Assembly (NCBI RefSeq): GCF_000420165.1
Contig: NZ_ATUK01000003.1
Coordinates: forward strand, 1 to 64,000
Direction of reading: 5' to 3'
From: Thioalkalivibrio sp. AKL19
GTDB taxonomy: Bacteria > Pseudomonadota > Gammaproteobacteria > Ectothiorhodospirales > Ectothiorhodospiraceae
DNA: 64,000 nucleotides
Below the pieces are notes generated by a model, which was given only the letters and a program-made list of their open reading frames with translations, was not told the origin of the DNA and made no database searches. The translations under genes were made by a program, and so were the position numbers. Numbering within the stretch: the stretch's first letter is position 1; each line of letters opens with the position of its first letter. Shown one piece after another: positions 4,079-41,622 of the stretch.

Positions 4079-4377
4079 TAAGGAGACGCTGATTAATTCG
4101 CACGTTCGCGCTCGAGTCGATTTTGCTCGATGACAAGGCGCGGCGAGCGAAGTGTAGCCGAGCTACATAAGCGAGCCGCAACGCCGTCAGCAGGCCCGAA
4201 TCCAGAAGGCAGGGCGGCCGAGCCCTCAAGGGGTTGGCTCCCCATTTTTCCCGATCCTGCGTTGCGCCCCGATGATCGACACGGGACCGTAGAGTGACTA
4301 CGGCACTGCCCACCGCGCCTTGTCACGGAAAAAATGGGGCACCAACGCGGACGTGCGAATCGATCAGCGTCTCCTTA
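4079..4377 (+). repeat. Dispersed intergenic palindromic element, copy A
   Basis: About 297-299 bp filling the gap between the DUF502 gene and coaBC. The ends are inverted repeats beginning TAAGGAGACGCTGAT, matching at 29 of 32 positions. It shares the architecture of copies B (17116), C (33201) and D (41309, inverted). Conserved parts are ACAAGGCGCG pairing with CGCGCCTTGT, CGCAACGC pairing with GCGTTGCG, and small hairpins. In this copy the hairpins are GTAGC-CGA-GCTAC and CCGTAG-AGTGA-CTACGG, different in sequence from the other copies but at the same places. The end at 4375-4377 forms the TAA stop of the DUF502 gene. No coding capacity or tRNA was seen. Confidence 0.85.
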
Positions 4378-6115: not shown

Positions 6116-7108
6116 TCAGAACTGCCAGGTGGCGTGCAGCGAGCCGAACTCGGCCGCGCCCTTGGCCTGACCGCTGAACTCGCGTGAGCGCCAGACGTGG
6201 GTGTAGCCGAGGCGTACCCCGCCGATGTGGAACACGAAGCCGGCGGTCAGCTCGCCCACCGCGGGGTGCTTGTCCACCGAAGGCCCGTCACGAAAGACCG
6301 GGCCGTCCAGGAACAGGTCGTAAAGCATCAGCCGCGTGTCGACACCGGCGAAGGCATAGCCGCCGACGCGCGCGGTGGTCTCGAAGGTGTGGGAACCGGA
6401 CAGTGCGGGCCGGATCCGGGGCGGGCCATAATCGCCGGGCAGGTGGCGACCCGCCCGCAGGATTGCCCCGGCGTTGGCGAAGGTGAAGGGCGTCCCGGCC
6501 GCCGCGCCCCAGTGCGGGGTCAGATCCCAGCCCCAGCCGTCTGTGGCGCGTTGCGTAAGACCGCGTAGTTGACGCTCGTACGCCACCATGAGCGTGGGTT
6601 CATTGCCGACCTGGTGGTCCCATCCCTGCGGCTGTGGCGCGCTGGACCAGCTGTGAACCTCCCGCTGGGTACGGTCCGCGAGGGAGGCCGGCCCGACCGT
6701 TCCGAGGGTGACCTGCAGTCGGTCCAGGCGGTCGTCGTGTTCCTCGGCCATGCTGAAATTCAGGTACAGCCAGCCGGCGTAGGGGCGATCGTCCGGATCC
6801 GGCGTCGTTCGCTCGATGTCCTCCGGGGTGTACATGTTCTGCCCGAGGTGGACCGCGGCCTTCAGGCGCCCGGGCTCTTCCCGTTCCACAAAAAAGGGCA
6901 GGAAATCCGCCACGCTTCGCAGCCAGGGCGGGACTCGCTCTTCGCTGCGGGTCCAGCCGATGCGGAATCCATTGGTGTAGTAGCGGTCCTCGCCTGCGAA
7001 CAGGTCGTTCTCGAACTCGAAGTGCAGGGCATCGACACCGGTTTCGGCTGCAGCGGTCGGGCTTGCGGCTGCCATGCAGAGGGCTGCCGCGGCCAGCAAC
7101 GCCCGCAT
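6116..7108 (-). CDS. LpxR-like outer-membrane lipid A deacylase (DUF2219 family)
   Basis: A 330-residue product with a signal peptide (MRALLAAAALCMAAASPTAAA). The mature start contains FEFENDLFAG, the N-D active-site motif of LpxR, followed by YYTNGFRIGWT. Further on are the GTVGPASLA and REVH segments, which carry the family serine and histidine. It ends LHATWQF with a terminal aromatic residue, as outer-membrane barrels do. LpxR removes the 3'-acyloxyacyl group of lipid A in a Ca2+-dependent way. The start at 7108 is chosen for the signal peptide; an ATG at 7165 would overlap the divergent gene. No convincing ribosome site is visible, so the start is uncertain. Confidence 0.8.
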   Translation of the reverse strand: MRALLAAAALCMAAASPTAAAETGVDALHFEFENDLFAGEDRYYTNGFRIGWTRSEERVPPWLRSVADFLPFFVEREEPGRLKAAVHLGQNMYTPEDIERTTPDPDDRPYAGWLYLNFSMAEEHDDRLDRLQVTLGTVGPASLADRTQREVHSWSSAPQPQGWDHQVGNEPTLMVAYERQLRGLTQRATDGWGWDLTPHWGAAAGTPFTFANAGAILRAGRHLPGDYGPPRIRPALSGSHTFETTARVGGYAFAGVDTRLMLYDLFLDGPVFRDGPSVDKHPAVGELTAGFVFHIGGVRLGYTHVWRSREFSGQAKGAAEFGSLHATWQF

Positions 7109-16222: not shown

Positions 16223-17104
16223 TTACCGCCGACGCCCGCCGAGCAGGGCCCAGCCTTCGCGGCAGTCCTCGACCCCGATCTCGAAGGCGTCGGAATAGGC
16301 GGCGATGACCTCGTCCGCCTGGCGCTCCAGCAGGCCGGCCAGCAGGATGCGGGCGCCGGGTTTTGCGGCCCGCGCGAGCTCCGGCGCCAGATCGATCAAC
16401 GGCTTGGCGAGGATGTTCGCCAGCACCAGGTCGTACCCGGCCGTCGGCACGGGGTGGTCGGTCAGGCCGGTTTCCAGGTGCGCGGGCGGGATGGCGTTGG
16501 CGTCGGCATTACTGCGTGTGGCCTGCACGGCCTGCTCGTCGATGTCTATACCCAGCGCATGGCGGGCCCCGAGCTTCAGGGCGGCGATGGCGAGGATGCC
16601 GGAGCCACAGCCGTAGTCGAGCACCTCCTGGTCACGCGGTGGCTGCTGGGCCAGTGCGGCCAGGCACATCGCGGTGGTCGGGTGGTTGCCGGTGCCGAAG
16701 GCCAGGCCGGGGTCCAGGCGCACGAAGGTGCCTTCCTCGATGGCGGGTTCGTCCTCCCAGGAGGGTACGATCCACAACGAGCCGCCGCAGTGGATGGCGC
16801 CGAGGCCATCGAGGCCGGCGCGCACCCAGTCCTGGTCCTCGATGGGCTGGACCTGGATCGCCTCCGGCGCCTGCGCCTGGCGTTCCAGCGCGGCGGCGGC
16901 GAGGTCCGCCTGGGTGGTATCCGGAAACACCGCCTTCAGGCGCACGGTGGACCACAGCGGATGGGTGCCGAGAGGGGGCTCGAACAGCGGCTCGTCGGCG
17001 GCATCGAACAACTCGACGCTGACTGCGCCCAGTTCAAAAAGCGTGTCTTCCAGCGGCTCGGCCTGTTCCGGGCTGATCTGGCATTCGAGTTCGGCAAGGC
17101 TCAT
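16223..17104 (-). CDS. prmA: ribosomal protein L11 methyltransferase
   Basis: SAM-dependent enzyme that trimethylates lysines and the N-terminus of ribosomal protein L11. The 293-residue length is standard. Motifs include LDPGLAFGTGNHPTTAMCL, the SAM site VLDYGCGSGILAIAALKLGA and the LANILAKPL catalytic segment. The start at 17104 gives MSLAELECQ with GGAG 9-10 bases upstream; the open frame runs further up only through repeat copy B, which is not genuine protein. accC lies upstream beyond that repeat, in the usual accC-prmA order. Confidence 0.96.
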   Translation of the reverse strand: MSLAELECQISPEQAEPLEDTLFELGAVSVELFDAADEPLFEPPLGTHPLWSTVRLKAVFPDTTQADLAAAALERQAQAPEAIQVQPIEDQDWVRAGLDGLGAIHCGGSLWIVPSWEDEPAIEEGTFVRLDPGLAFGTGNHPTTAMCLAALAQQPPRDQEVLDYGCGSGILAIAALKLGARHALGIDIDEQAVQATRSNADANAIPPAHLETGLTDHPVPTAGYDLVLANILAKPLIDLAPELARAAKPGARILLAGLLERQADEVIAAYSDAFEIGVEDCREGWALLGGRRR

Positions 17105-17115
17105 GGCGTCAGGCT

Positions 17116-17418
17116 CCAGGGAAACGCTGATTAATGTGCACGTTCGCGCTCGAGTCGCTTTTGCGGGCGAACAAGGCGCGGCGACCGCCGTGCAGTCATT
17201 CTGCACACGGGAGCCGCAACGCTGTTCCCGCGCCCGTTGTTATCAAAAACGGGCGGCCGAGCCCCGGCATTGAATGGCTTGTGGGGTTGGTACCCCAGGT
17301 TCCCCGATCCTGCGTTGCGCCGCTTGCGGGTAGAACCACTACCCGCTGCACGACGCGCCTTGTTTCGTAAAACCTGCGGTACCAACGCGAACGTGCACAT
17401 TGATCAGTGTTTCCCTGG
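17116..17418 (+). repeat. Dispersed intergenic palindromic element, copy B
   Basis: A 299-bp core (17118-17416, AGGGAAAC to GTTTCCCT) with the inverted repeat extending two more bases on each side. The first 33 bases match the complement of the last 33 with only two differences. The interior contains ACAAGGCGCG pairing with CGCGCCTTGT, hairpin TGCAG-TCATT-CTGCA, CGCAACGC pairing with GCGTTGCG, hairpin CGCCCGTT to AACGGGCG, a GTTGGTACC strand pairing with GGTACCAAC, and hairpin GCGGGTAG-AACCA-CTACCCGC. It separates accC from prmA and begins 19 bp after the accC stop. It reads antisense to the genes. No protein is evident. Confidence 0.88.
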
Positions 17419-17434: not shown

Positions 17435-18781
<1,347 letters not shown>

Positions 18782-31268: not shown

Positions 31269-32626
31269 TGGCAGGCAAGCAAAAGCGTGTGGTGCCCTCG
31301 CGGGTGGATTCGCGTTCGCCGCGCCAGCGGGCGCTGGAGGCGGTCGAGCGCGTGGTACTGCAGGGGCAGTCGCTGACCCGGGCGGTGGACCTGGTGACCG
31401 AGGGGCTCGCGCCGCGCGATGCCGCCTGGGTGCAGGCGCTCGCCTACACCACCCTGCGCTGGTATCCGCAGCTGGAGGGGCTGGTCGGCGGGTTTCTCGA
31501 CCGACCGCTGCGCAAAAAGGATGCCGTGATCGGCGTGCTGTTGGCGCAGGGCCTGGCCGAGGTCCTGCACTTTGGCACGCGTGATCACGCCGCGGTGCGC
31601 GAGACCGCCGAGCTGGCGCGCGAGATCCATCGCCCCGGCGCGGTGGGGCTGATCAACGCGGTGCTGCGCCGTGCCCTGCGCGAGCAGGATGCGCTGGCCG
31701 CCCGGATCGAGGCCGAGCCGGGCCTGCGCTATGCGGTCCCGGACTGGTTGCTGGAGGCGATTCGCGACGCCTGGCCCGAGGACTGGGAGACGCTGCTCGA
31801 GGCCTCGACGCTGCCGGCGCCGATGACCCTGCGGGTGAACCTCCAGCGCGGCAGCCGCGAGGCGGCGCTGGAGGCGCTGGCCGCTGCGGGGACGCCGGCC
31901 TGGCCGCACCCGGTACTCGCCAGCGCGCTGACCCTGGAGAATCCGGTCGACGTCGGGGCGCTGCCGGGGTTTGCCGACGGGGCGCTGTCCGTCCAGGACG
32001 CCTCGGCGCAATGGGCCGGGCACCTGCTGGACCCACGGCCGGGCGAGCGCGTGCTGGACGCCTGCGCGGCGCCGGGCGGCAAGACCGGGCACCTGCTGGA
32101 GCGCGCCGGCGGGAAACTGGACCTGACCGCGCTGGACAACGATCCCGAGCGCCTGGAGCAGGTGCGCGAGAACCTCGACCGGCTGGGCTTTGAGGCGCAC
32201 CGGGTCGCGGCCGACCTGGAGGCCACAGACGACTGGTGGGACGGCGAGGCCTTCGACGCGATCCTGCTCGACGTGCCCTGTTCCGCCACCGGCGTGATCC
32301 GGCGTCACCCGGATATCAAGACCCTGCGCCGAGCCGAGGACATCCCGCGCCTGGCCGCGGAGCAGGCTCGCCTGCTGGCCGGTGCCTGGCGCCTGCTGCG
32401 TCCCGGCGGGCGGCTGTTGTATGCGACCTGCTCGTTGCTGTCGCCGGAAAACGAGGCCGTTGTGGCCCCGTTCGTGGCCGCGACCGCGGATGCGCGGGTG
32501 CTGCCCGTGAACGGCGATGCGGGGATCCCCGGAGGCCGGCCGCGCGAGGTCGGCGTGTCGCTGCCGCTGGGGCTCGAGGGCGGTGATGGCTTTTACTATG
32601 CGCTACTGGAGAAGCAGGTCCCCTGA
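31268..32626 (+). CDS. rsmB: 16S rRNA (cytosine-967-C5) methyltransferase
   Basis: Methylates C967 of 16S rRNA. The 452-residue protein has an N-terminal NusB-like RNA-binding domain (about 15-150). The SAM-dependent m5C methyltransferase domain has DACAAPGGKTGHLLE, LDNDPERLEQV, LLDVPCSATGVIRRHPDIK with the conserved Pro-Cys, and YATCSLLSPENE with the second catalytic cysteine. It follows the standard def-fmt-rsmB order with one-base overlaps on both sides. Confidence 0.97.
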   Translation: MAGKQKRVVPSRVDSRSPRQRALEAVERVVLQGQSLTRAVDLVTEGLAPRDAAWVQALAYTTLRWYPQLEGLVGGFLDRPLRKKDAVIGVLLAQGLAEVLHFGTRDHAAVRETAELAREIHRPGAVGLINAVLRRALREQDALAARIEAEPGLRYAVPDWLLEAIRDAWPEDWETLLEASTLPAPMTLRVNLQRGSREAALEALAAAGTPAWPHPVLASALTLENPVDVGALPGFADGALSVQDASAQWAGHLLDPRPGERVLDACAAPGGKTGHLLERAGGKLDLTALDNDPERLEQVRENLDRLGFEAHRVAADLEATDDWWDGEAFDAILLDVPCSATGVIRRHPDIKTLRRAEDIPRLAAEQARLLAGAWRLLRPGGRLLYATCSLLSPENEAVVAPFVAATADARVLPVNGDAGIPGGRPREVGVSLPLGLEGGDGFYYALLEKQVP

Positions 32627-33204: not shown

Positions 33205-33503
33205 GGAAACGCTGGTCAACGTACATGCTCGCTGCTTCGTCGCTTTTGCGTGCGAACAAGGCGCGGCGATGGCCGTGCAGTCATTCTGCAAAAGGGAGCC
33301 GCAACGCCGTGCGCAGGCCCGTTTTTGATCACAACGGGCGGCCGAGCCCCTGCTTTCAATGGTTCGTGGGGTTGATTACCCAGGTTCCCCGGTCCGGCGT
33401 TGCGGCCCTTGCCGGTAGAATGGCGACCGGCTGCGGACCGCGCCTTGTTTCGGAAAACCTGGGTTGCCAACGCGAGGGTGTACGTTGATCAGCGTTTCCC
33501 TAA
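33201..33503 (+). repeat. Dispersed intergenic palindromic element, copy C
   Basis: A 299-bp core (33203-33501) with inverted ends extended by two bases (TTAGGG to CCCTAA). The first 32 bases match the complement of the last 32 at 29 positions. It shows the same internal order as copies A and B: ACAAGGCGCG, hairpin TGCAG-TCATT-CTGCA, CGCAACGC, hairpin CCCGTT to AACGGG, ACCCAGGTT pairing with AACCTGGGT, GCGTTGCG, hairpin CCGGT to ACCGG, CGCGCCTTGT. It separates DUF4390 from ntrY inside a normally contiguous operon, in sense orientation. It overlaps the DUF4390 stop and the likely ntrY start. Confidence 0.88.
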
Positions 33504-40336: not shown

Positions 40337-41325
40337 GCGCAGCAGACGACGACCGAAGCCGGAACCACGACGCCGGTGCCTACAAGGCCCCGCTGACCGC
40401 CGCGCACTTCGCCCCGCGTTACTGGGGCAGCTGGCTGTTGCTGGGTCTGGCCTGGGTCCTGCAGGAGCTTCCGCGTCCGGCCGTACGCGGTCTGGCGCGC
40501 GGCCTGGGCCCGCTGATCCGTCGCTTCGCCGGGCGCAGCCGGTCGGTGGCCGAACGCAACCTGGAGCTGTGCTTTCCGCACCTGAGCGCCGCCGAGCGCG
40601 CGCAGCGTCTGGAGGCCTATTACCGCTACCAGGCCCAGACGGTGCTGGATTACGGCCTGCTGTGGTTCGGCAAGCCGGGGCAGCATGCCACCCGGATCCG
40701 CATCGAGGGTGTGGAGCACTACGAGCGCCTGCGCTCCGCCGGCACGCCGGTGATCATCCTCGCCCCGCACTCCCTGGCGCTGGATTATGGCGGCGTGCGC
40801 ATGAGCCAGATGTTCGACGGCGTATCCTTCGCCAAGCCGATGAAGAACCCGGTGCTCGAGTGGATCAACCATCGCAGCCGCACGCGCTACTCCGGCGACA
40901 TCTTTGCCCGCGACCAGGGCCTGCGCCCGGCGATCCGCCAGCTCAAGCGCGGGCGCTTCTTCTACTACCTTCCGGACGAAGACCTGGGCGCCGAGGGCGC
41001 GGTGTTCGTGGATTTCTTCGGCGTGCAGAAGGCCACGCTGACCGCGCTGGCGCGCCTGGCGCGCATGTCGAAGGCCGCGGTACTCCCCAGCTTCGCCTGG
41101 TACGACACGGCGGCCGACCAGTACGTGATGCGCCTGTGGCCCCCCATGGACGGGTATCCCACCGGCGATGACGAGGCCGACGCCCGGCAGATGAACGCGG
41201 CCGTGGAGCGCGGCATCGAACAGGCTCCGCCGCAGTACCTGTGGTCCATGCGCCTGTTCCGCACCCGCCCCGAAGGCGAGCCGCGCCTGTACCCCGACCG
41301 CAAGCGCAAGGGAAACACTGATTAA
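40333..41325 (+). CDS. LpxL/HtrB-family lysophospholipid acyltransferase
   Basis: A 330-residue inner-membrane acyltransferase. An N-terminal hydrophobic helix (about 33-50, YWGSWLLLGLAWVLQEL) anchors it. The catalytic HX4D motif is in APHSLALDYGG (about residue 142), followed by the conserved NRxxR-like NHRSRTRYSG and the YLPDEDLGAEGAVFVDFFG segment. It probably adds a secondary acyl chain to lipid A (LpxL/LpxM role). The last codons (K-G-N-T-D-stop) run into repeat copy D, which begins at the second base of the AAG codon at 41308, so the native C-terminus has been replaced by element sequence. Confidence 0.88.
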   Translation: MSAADDDRSRNHDAGAYKAPLTAAHFAPRYWGSWLLLGLAWVLQELPRPAVRGLARGLGPLIRRFAGRSRSVAERNLELCFPHLSAAERAQRLEAYYRYQAQTVLDYGLLWFGKPGQHATRIRIEGVEHYERLRSAGTPVIILAPHSLALDYGGVRMSQMFDGVSFAKPMKNPVLEWINHRSRTRYSGDIFARDQGLRPAIRQLKRGRFFYYLPDEDLGAEGAVFVDFFGVQKATLTALARLARMSKAAVLPSFAWYDTAADQYVMRLWPPMDGYPTGDDEADARQMNAAVERGIEQAPPQYLWSMRLFRTRPEGEPRLYPDRKRKGNTD

Positions 41326-41622
41326 TGCACACACTCGCGTTGGCACCCCAGGTTTTCCGAGACAAGGCGCGCCGTGCTGCGGGTCGCGGTTCTACCCGCC
41401 CGTTTTTGATGGATTCGGGGCGCAACGCAGGATCGGGGAACCTGGGGTGCCAACCCCACAAACGATTGAAGGCAGGGGCTCGGCCGCCCGTTGTTGACGA
41501 AAACGGGCGCGCGCACGGCGTTGCGGCTCCCTTGTGCAGAATGACTGCACGGCGGTCACCGCGCCTTGTTCGCACCCAAAAGCGACTCGAGCGCGAGCGT
41601 GTGCATTATTCAGTGTTTCCCT
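41309..41622 (-). repeat. Dispersed intergenic palindromic element, copy D (inverted)
   Basis: A 314-bp member of the same family, in the opposite orientation to copies A-C. The inverted ends (AGGGAAACACTGA start) match at 29 of 31 positions. Read on the minus strand it has CTCGAGTCGC, ACAAGGCGCG, hairpin TGCAG-TCATT-CTGCA, CGCAACGC, hairpin CGCCCGTT to AACGGGCG, GCACCCCAGGTT pairing perfectly with AACCTGGGGTGC, GCGTTGCG, hairpin GCGGGT to ACCCGC and CGCGCCTTGT. About 15 extra bases near the third hairpin explain the greater length. It carries the stop of the acyltransferase gene and ends 13 bp before the glycosylase start. Confidence 0.88.

Follow-up and report, generated by a model that had tools for sequence, protein, structure and literature searches.

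MITEs are treated in the accessible text of PMC10969869 as decayed insertion sequences (ISs). The IS5-family MITEs described there are short and non-coding, carry the terminal inverted repeats (TIRs) of a resident IS next to a short target signal, and are found between genes in many copies. REP and BIME sequences, as characterized in the accessible sections of PMC3733652, are strand-specific palindromes of 20-40 bp that occur in inverted pairs between genes, carry a GTAG tag and are tied to tyrosine transposases; the same sections record GTAG-tagged REPs in Thioalkalivibrio K90mix and HL-EbGR7. Enterobacteria possess the YPAL/RU-2 and ERIC/RU-1 repeats, which are mobile, fold and measure 127-168 bp (PMC2759123, accessible portion). 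Correia/NEMIS, Nezha and Chunjie are likewise bacterial MITEs with TIRs that fold, each reported from one or a few groups, and in the accessible portions of PMC3733652, PMC4853749 and PMC10969869 no common core is reported for them.

The element considered here, copy 2 of Table 1, is one of four copies in the window, by which we mean the whole stretch of 64,000 nucleotides from Thioalkalivibrio sp. AKL19 that was analysed. It shares all of the listed features with the IS5-family MITEs but differs from them in that its interior is not derived from the IS and in that a structured core is held in a fixed Y geometry across many genera. Like REPs and BIMEs, the elements are strand-specific palindromes in inverted pairs between genes, but they are made of 97-nt hairpins inside DDE-type TIRs, in elements of 264-276 bp, rather than of the short GTAG-tagged palindromes that go with RAYTs. 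The enterobacterial repeats are close in size to a one-arm form of the element, and the printed RU-2, compared by eye only, lacks the CAAGGCGC...GCAACGC core. From Correia/NEMIS, Nezha and Chunjie the elements are set apart by description only. A search of Rfam 15 at the gathering score gave no match in the window and none in 18 loci; the single sub-threshold match lies outside the element and is irrelevant. No description of the hairpin design was found in the literature covered (full text, searched also by sequence strings, with subscription papers mostly outside the scope). The remark in the original prediction that this is not a nameable class of element is therefore in keeping with the Rfam and literature searches.

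The four copies lie where they had been predicted, and an end-to-end alignment of all four confirms a single family that is dispersed, bounded by TIRs and non-coding. The limits in Table 1 were drawn from GGAAAC or GGAGAC to GTTTCC or GTCTCC. Ends of about 32 bp had been proposed; the inverted ends are real, but the TIR measures 28-32 bp and each of the two hairpins inside has a separate paired stem. When a 16-mer of the TIR was sought with no more than 3 mismatches, 9 occurrences were recovered in the window compared with 0.96 expected from shuffling. Eight of these coincide with the ends of the four copies, two to each, and the ninth, at 31785, is a stray. A covariance model of the 97-nt hairpin detected all eight arms, and nothing else in the window at E values up to 0.1; the four copies are accordingly counted with the Y-fold elements, a group defined by two opposed model hits about 106 nt apart within TIRs. 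The left arm of copy 2 contains an insertion of about 15 bp in its outer stem, and the 97-position model consequently matches only positions 14-84 there.

Table 1. Coordinates of the elements, their parts and the neighbouring genes in the window.
Feature	Position	Strand	Remarks
Copy 1	4082-4374	+	hairpin arms 4112-4204 (+), 4235-4344 (-)
Copy 2 (element of the finding, 295 bp)	17120-17414	+	genome copies 91% identical
Copy 2, left target-site 4-mer CCAG	17116-17119	.	read as decayed YTAR; empty site in sister species (L037/L144)
Copy 2, right target-site 4-mer CTGG	17415-17418	.	
Copy 2, left TIR	17120-17147	+	28 stem columns counted
Copy 2, right TIR	17387-17414	-	
Copy 2, left hairpin arm	17163-17233	+	core 17171-17222
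Copy 2, right hairpin arm	17288-17384	-	full 97-position match, E 3.1e-19; core 17312-17363
Copy 3	33205-33499	+	hairpin arms 33248-33318 (+), 33373-33469 (-)
Copy 4, inverted	41311-41620	-	hairpin arms 41341-41452 (+), 41507-41577 (-)
Neighbours of copy 1		-	DUF502 gene, CoaBC-like gene
Neighbours of copy 2		-	AccC-like, PrmA-like
Neighbours of copy 3		+	DUF4390 gene, NtrY-like kinase
Neighbours of copy 4		+	lipid-A-acyltransferase-like, Fpg/MutM-like
AccC-like gene upstream of copy 2	17435-18781	-	biotin carboxylase domains
PrmA-like gene downstream of copy 2	16223-17206	-	listed ORF extends into element

The expectation that four copies in the window imply many in the genome was borne out, with at least 39 distinct full copies in the stretches of the host genome that were fetched. 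BLAST against this genome returned at least 75 pieces (with 40 of 93 candidates scored), and the TIR pattern was present at 121 places, compared with 1 for a reversed control. Of 40 relatives searched with the Thioalkalivibrio element, 13 contained matches: the host, which is counted here, and 12 of the 24 other genomes of the genus. The matching genomes of the genus have 14-40 listed matches each, pieces included; the same search gave no match in the 15 genomes of other genera. A pattern for the arm was found in named contigs at no fewer than 80 loci, and all of those listed belong to Thioalkalivibrio, a result that is uninformative on other genera. Two collections of phages and plasmids yielded no instance of the Thioalkalivibrio element. 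Altogether 148 distinct copies were collected, and these are multicopy, shorter than 600 bp (266-347 bp) and without coding capacity, as MITEs are; those ORFs overlapping copies that have Pfam domains are neighbouring genes. The family is described here as one of MITEs of 265-315 bp, and the lengths cluster at steps of about 15 bp. The shortest common class in Thioalkalivibrio, about 269 bp, corresponds to the canonical size, and longer copies contain additional pieces of about 15 bp. The site of copy 3 is also occupied in Thioalkalivibrio sp. ALE14 (L105) and ALJ21 (L136), and that of copy 4 is occupied in ALE14 (L143) by a copy of 284 bp. Same-site copies in two species differ by about 15 or 30 bp (L010/L149, window 41309/L143, window 33203/L105, L025/L109), and we read these differences as pieces gained or lost in place. 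Some remnants (G000:C10:456183-456210, G000:C12:110840-110863 and L138 near 6671-6700) approximate two TIRs placed head to head, as if the interior had been deleted.

No direct target duplication had been visible in the four window copies, and the original prediction said so. That claim is not supported by comparison of many copies, in which a 4-bp CTAG/TTAA signal appears. The ends were readable for this count in 146 of the 148 copies, and the flanking 4-mers were CTAG on both sides in 40 of them and TTAA on both sides in 14. Identical 4-mers on the two sides were present in 63 of the 146 copies, compared with 26.7 expected (maximum 38 in 2000 shuffles), and one step further out only 2 were identical. 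Identity is enriched at -4/+1 and -1/+4, as expected of a 4-bp duplication; complementarity at -1/+1 is equally strong, and the inner target bases are better conserved than the outer ones. Since CTAG and TTAA are palindromes, a duplication is indistinguishable from inverted symmetry at most sites. Non-palindromic pairs were inverted in 8 cases (TTAG/CTAA 7, CCAG/CTGG 1) and direct in 8 (TTAG 3, CTAA 2, CTTG 2, CCAG 1). In the window all four pairs are decayed: TTAA/TTAG, CCAG/CTGG, TTAG/CTAA and CAAG/CTAA. The two extra symmetric bases described earlier beyond the common ends are indeed seen, but are most simply regarded as part of the CTAG/TTAA signal. This signal may be read as a decayed form of YTAR, which we take to be the target type of the IS5 kind, a reading that stops short of proof of duplication. 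Sister species were, as had been suggested, a source of empty sites: 24 of the 28 displayed flank comparisons are without the element, and the other four contain remnants (three) or a shorter copy (one). In Thioalkalivibrio sp. ALE31 the site of copy 2 is empty. Empty sites frequently show neither CTAG nor TTAA: beside some with CTAG, others read CTTG, CTGG, CCAG or GTAA, and in several divergence prevents a reading.

An autonomous transposase sharing the ends, which the prediction had proposed looking for, was found. At G000:C11:202924-204113 the host genome contains an IS of 1,190 bp with the same TIR pair, enclosing a 342-aa transposase of the IS5 family (NF033581, E 1.8e-91; domains PF05598 and PF01609). 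Related copies are intact in another genome of the genus, G012; G007 has a fragment and the host itself also a broken copy. The ends of the MITEs are thus shared with an autonomous IS in G000 and in G012. Two types of MITE end can be distinguished, and among the 146 copies 95 are A/A, 38 are B/B, none is A/B and 13 are ambiguous. The ends of the IS are unlike each other in two G012 copies, one being GGAAACRCTGATCAATG (A-like) and the other GGAGACRCTGATTTAAT (B-like). In a comparison over 20 nt, one end of the IS is the nearer for 186 of 188 A-type MITE ends and the other end for 68 of 76 B-type ends; the 14 of 146 copies not starting with GGAAAC or GGAGAC are left out of this comparison. The ends agree at 15-17 of these 20 positions, whereas random interior 20-mers average 6.2. 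By the sequence of its ends, the element belongs with the IS5-family MITEs. Movement of the MITEs in trans by the IS5-family transposase is, on these comparisons, well supported but not proven. Against it, of 8 MITE-bearing genomes of the genus that were searched, a close transposase is intact in G012 alone, with the fragment in G007; in the remaining six a transposase match is absent or weak.

The shared TIRs and similar target sites would also be expected if the copies were ordinary deletion derivatives of an IS5 element with the same ends, an outcome that the original prediction had named as its own refutation. Half of that objection stands, in that the genome does contain an IS5-family element bounded by the same ends. 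However, the MITE interior is not that of this IS: compared with three IS copies it gave no significant similarity (lowest E 0.003 over 2,496 interior pieces), and it belongs to a set common to many genera across the phylum. In addition, no MITE is of type A/B, all those assigned being A/A or B/B, whereas each of the two G012 IS copies combines an A-like with a B-like end. Simple deletion is refuted for the IS copies examined and is, as a general account, scarcely credible. With IS5 ends and an interior that does not come from that IS, the element is a MITE by its ends and not a plain deletion derivative of that IS. No hairpin is present in the IS copies with the same ends, apart from one weak match (E 0.0072) that falls outside the first G012 copy, past its end. 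Another IS5-type end, preceded by TTAA, starts directly behind this copy (L194 1352-2556) and perhaps marks a tandem pair. Inspection by eye of the matches listed for 4, 5 and 3 other genomes gave no clear TIR pair of 1-2 kb that might represent a hairpin-bearing autonomous parent, and in 8 genomes the plus/minus hairpin pairs among the matches listed, also viewed by eye, were all of element size.

The copies had been called more structured than a simple MITE, a description that the covarying paired hairpins support. Aligned without gaps, 29 hairpins of 97 nt show three stems per arm, P1 of 20 bp, P2 of 5 bp and P3 of 6 bp. Change on both sides was seen in all 31 of 31 pairs in these 29 sequences; 85.3% of the paired cells are able to pair, compared with 52.1% after shuffling and at most 44.5% after sliding, and the covariation value is 0.826, compared with 0.227 and at most 0.252 respectively. 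The conserved CAAGGCGC...GCAACGC lies inside stems that vary freely yet remain paired, with near-invariant CAAGGC before P2 and AAC after P2. Integron attC sites similarly hold conserved boxes inside variable stems and fold in a strand-specific manner; the Y-fold elements differ in being bounded by TIRs, and no integrase context was seen. In the canonical layout a TIR of about 32 bp is followed by a 97-nt hairpin, about 9 nt, an inverted 97-nt hairpin and the second TIR, giving a Y-fold of about 268 bp. When whole elements were folded as RNA, copy 2 gave a z of -10.1 and a canonical element one of -17.0.

With a model of the 52-nt core derived from 54 arms of Thioalkalivibrio, matches were obtained in 43 of the 274 class genomes searched, belonging to 36 of 221 genera; at the loci of these matches the core keeps the same distance to TIRs that are themselves quite dissimilar. 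The 97-nt covariance model found matches in 141 of 398 Pseudomonadota genomes, representing 75 of 213 genera; the best E value was 1e-6 or lower in 114 of the 141 (by hand count of the listing) and weaker in 27. Eight genomes that were searched more fully have 8 to 62 matches each among the matches listed. The covariance-model search of the genome and its relatives advocated in the original prediction has led to further hairpins of this kind, spread over the phylum. From 62 loci, which are the best hits of their genomes and of which a few overlap, 113 model hits were obtained (107 distinct sequences), and 98 of the 113 have an inverted partner, usually at a spacing of 106 nt. The TIR was readable in 72 of 83 loci. 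In 50 of these 72 the element spans 264-276 bp, and in 60 the distance from the TIR start to the hairpin is 31-34 bp; nine elements of 161-218 bp mostly have one arm, or a second arm that could not be recognised because of its divergence or short length. At 70% identity the TIRs fall into 25 groups; because some groups are related (AGGGCCTGTT, AGGGTCTGTT) the number of unrelated types is smaller than 25. The layout of the loci inspected is mostly constant behind many different TIR sequences.

Longer or neighbouring elements with more than two arms occur at two loci, L217 1448-1963, with four model hits, and L220 1448-1897, where the TIRs span 450 bp. Unannotated elements of the same design are carried by plasmids of Pseudomonas aeruginosa (NZ_CP017294.1 8550-8816) and Azotobacter chroococcum (NZ_CP010421.1 19134-19400). 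When other element types were used to search plasmids, the first query matched 4 records, the second matched records of the same four organisms, the third matched just 51-bp pieces in records of two of those organisms, and three further queries were without a match. One other-type query had no match in E. coli and one had none in phages. A viral contig of IMG/VR (L295 5287-5337) contains a core of the common GTTTGG hairpin type.

Do these different TIRs reflect an exchange of ends among transposases? There may instead have been one old lineage, with no exchange of ends, whose paired parts, including the TIR, drifted under the pairing rule and followed transposases. All paired parts vary freely and several TIR sets begin alike, the related groups cited above among them, in agreement with this idea. 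Other TIRs have no visible common letters (TATTAACCCGGCAA, TAGTGTAGTGCG, AGAGCTCATTTC) though the core is conserved, and in Thioalkalivibrio two end types are found on one interior type, which descent without exchange does not readily explain. We consider a single drifting lineage nearly as credible as its opposite.

The mismatches in the stems carry information about the strand. On the core strand G-T exceeds A-C by 102:20 in 48 representatives that are less than 70% identical. The model behind this ratio was trained on such pairs, and the cleaner figure is therefore that for the outer stem, 59:24, in loci found by a model without that stem. The counts are 8:2 for P2 and 16:0 for P3. The core strand of the Thioalkalivibrio arms shows a weaker asymmetry of 81:47 in all, made up of 8:4 in the left hairpin, 18:3 in the right hairpin and 55:40 in the right outer stem. 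This excess of G-T suggests that a single-stranded fold is under selection, as it appears to be. A G-T wobble forms in single-stranded DNA too, so both RNA and single-stranded DNA are possible. In several cases stems are linked to each other more than to their neighbours.

It was also considered that the fold is passive, with template switching or hairpin repair copying one arm onto the other in fold-back DNA, so that the fold has no function. Several observations favour copying of this kind. Position 14 is the same in both TIRs of one copy in 130 of 145 cases (54 expected), and a TIR dinucleotide is shared within the copy in 73 of 89 (25.4 expected), while at least 44 changes of the end allele are needed on a tree of the interior; the two ends thus change together. 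G-C to C-G flips are present in the stems. However, arm-to-arm copying predicts neither the strand asymmetry of the mismatches, nor the near-invariance of unpaired core letters across genera, nor the fixed spacing, and we regard it as distinctly improbable.

All four window copies lie between co-directional genes, as had been stated, in agreement with the Pfam-supported neighbours, and three of the four are in the orientation that is common in the genus. A census based on crude GC3 gene calls with a gap limit of 300 classified 87 of the 148 copies and left 61 unclassified: 61 are between co-directional genes, 11 between convergent and 15 between divergent genes. At 50 of the 61 co-directional sites in Thioalkalivibrio the element has one orientation (in the host genome 14 of 18, p 0.031, and among other species 36 of 43, with p given as 0.0), with orthologous sites between species only partly removed. 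In 22 of the 61 the stop codon of the upstream gene is within 6 bp of the element. An element of another type, on the Pseudomonas aeruginosa plasmid, also separates co-directional genes, with a stop codon 6 bp before it. No promoter or intrinsic terminator was found inside copy 2. The real start of the PrmA-like gene is probably nearer 17104, and the junction of copy 2 with its flank (window 17100-17130) immediately precedes the likely start codon of prmA; by eye, GGAG on the minus strand of this junction may serve as the ribosome-binding site of prmA.

These data bear on whether the hairpin works as single-stranded DNA, folding on the lagging strand or in transposition and being recognised by the transposase or a host nuclease, like REP or attC sites. 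The G-T over A-C asymmetry fits such a role equally well, the geometry of TIR and hairpin is fixed, and TIRs are present on both the two-arm versions and the one-arm versions of 161-218 bp. But the partner is a DDE enzyme of IS5 type and the target signal is of the short staggered-cut type, and hairpins are required by neither. The hairpin is missing, bar the one weak match, from the IS copies with the same ends, and an orientation bias relative to transcription is not predicted by a role in DNA. We therefore think a DNA-level function unlikely, though far from negligible.

The explanation that we favour, and hold to be fairly probable as a whole, is that these are IS5-mobilised MITEs whose Y-fold hairpins, found throughout the phylum, act in RNA. 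The elements would be non-autonomous, copying the ends of an IS5-family IS whose DDE transposase mobilises them in trans, and insertion would take place at sites of CTAG/TTAA type, frequently at a stop codon between genes that run in the same direction. With two opposed 97-nt hairpins and TIRs, each strand folds into a Y of fixed size (32 + 97 + 9 + 97 + 32), and the same design recurs, with other TIR and stem sequences, across Pseudomonadota. Since the core-strand fold appears to be maintained by selection, whichever hairpin comes first on a given strand is most likely the functional one. Action in RNA is the likeliest mode: a neighbouring transcript crossing the element in either direction would have its first arm folded in sense. 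The folded arm might make the insertion tolerable or even useful, for example by hiding an untranslated stretch from Rho or ribonucleases, and genes downstream would stay expressed, an anti-polarity role that we infer. Read-through in operons that include housekeeping genes, nearly full pairing and a sense core met first from either side point to a fold that acts in the transcript, and we judge action at the RNA level to be about evenly balanced against its absence. A broader proposal, possible but doubtful, is that of a phylum-wide class of mobile Y-folding RNA devices, in which the sense-folded copy met first from either side suppresses polarity or decay, enabling the element to live inside operons, with ends that adapt to, or are exchanged among, transposases.

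It is a possibility that the hairpin set forms a class of its own. In the usual view a MITE is a decayed insertion sequence; here the inside design is more conserved than the ends across many genera, and the stem mismatches follow a strand rule. If this is confirmed, the origin of a MITE would become a question of the scaffold, beyond that of the parent IS alone, and many bacterial operons would contain an unrecognised structured module whose effect on transcription could be examined directly.
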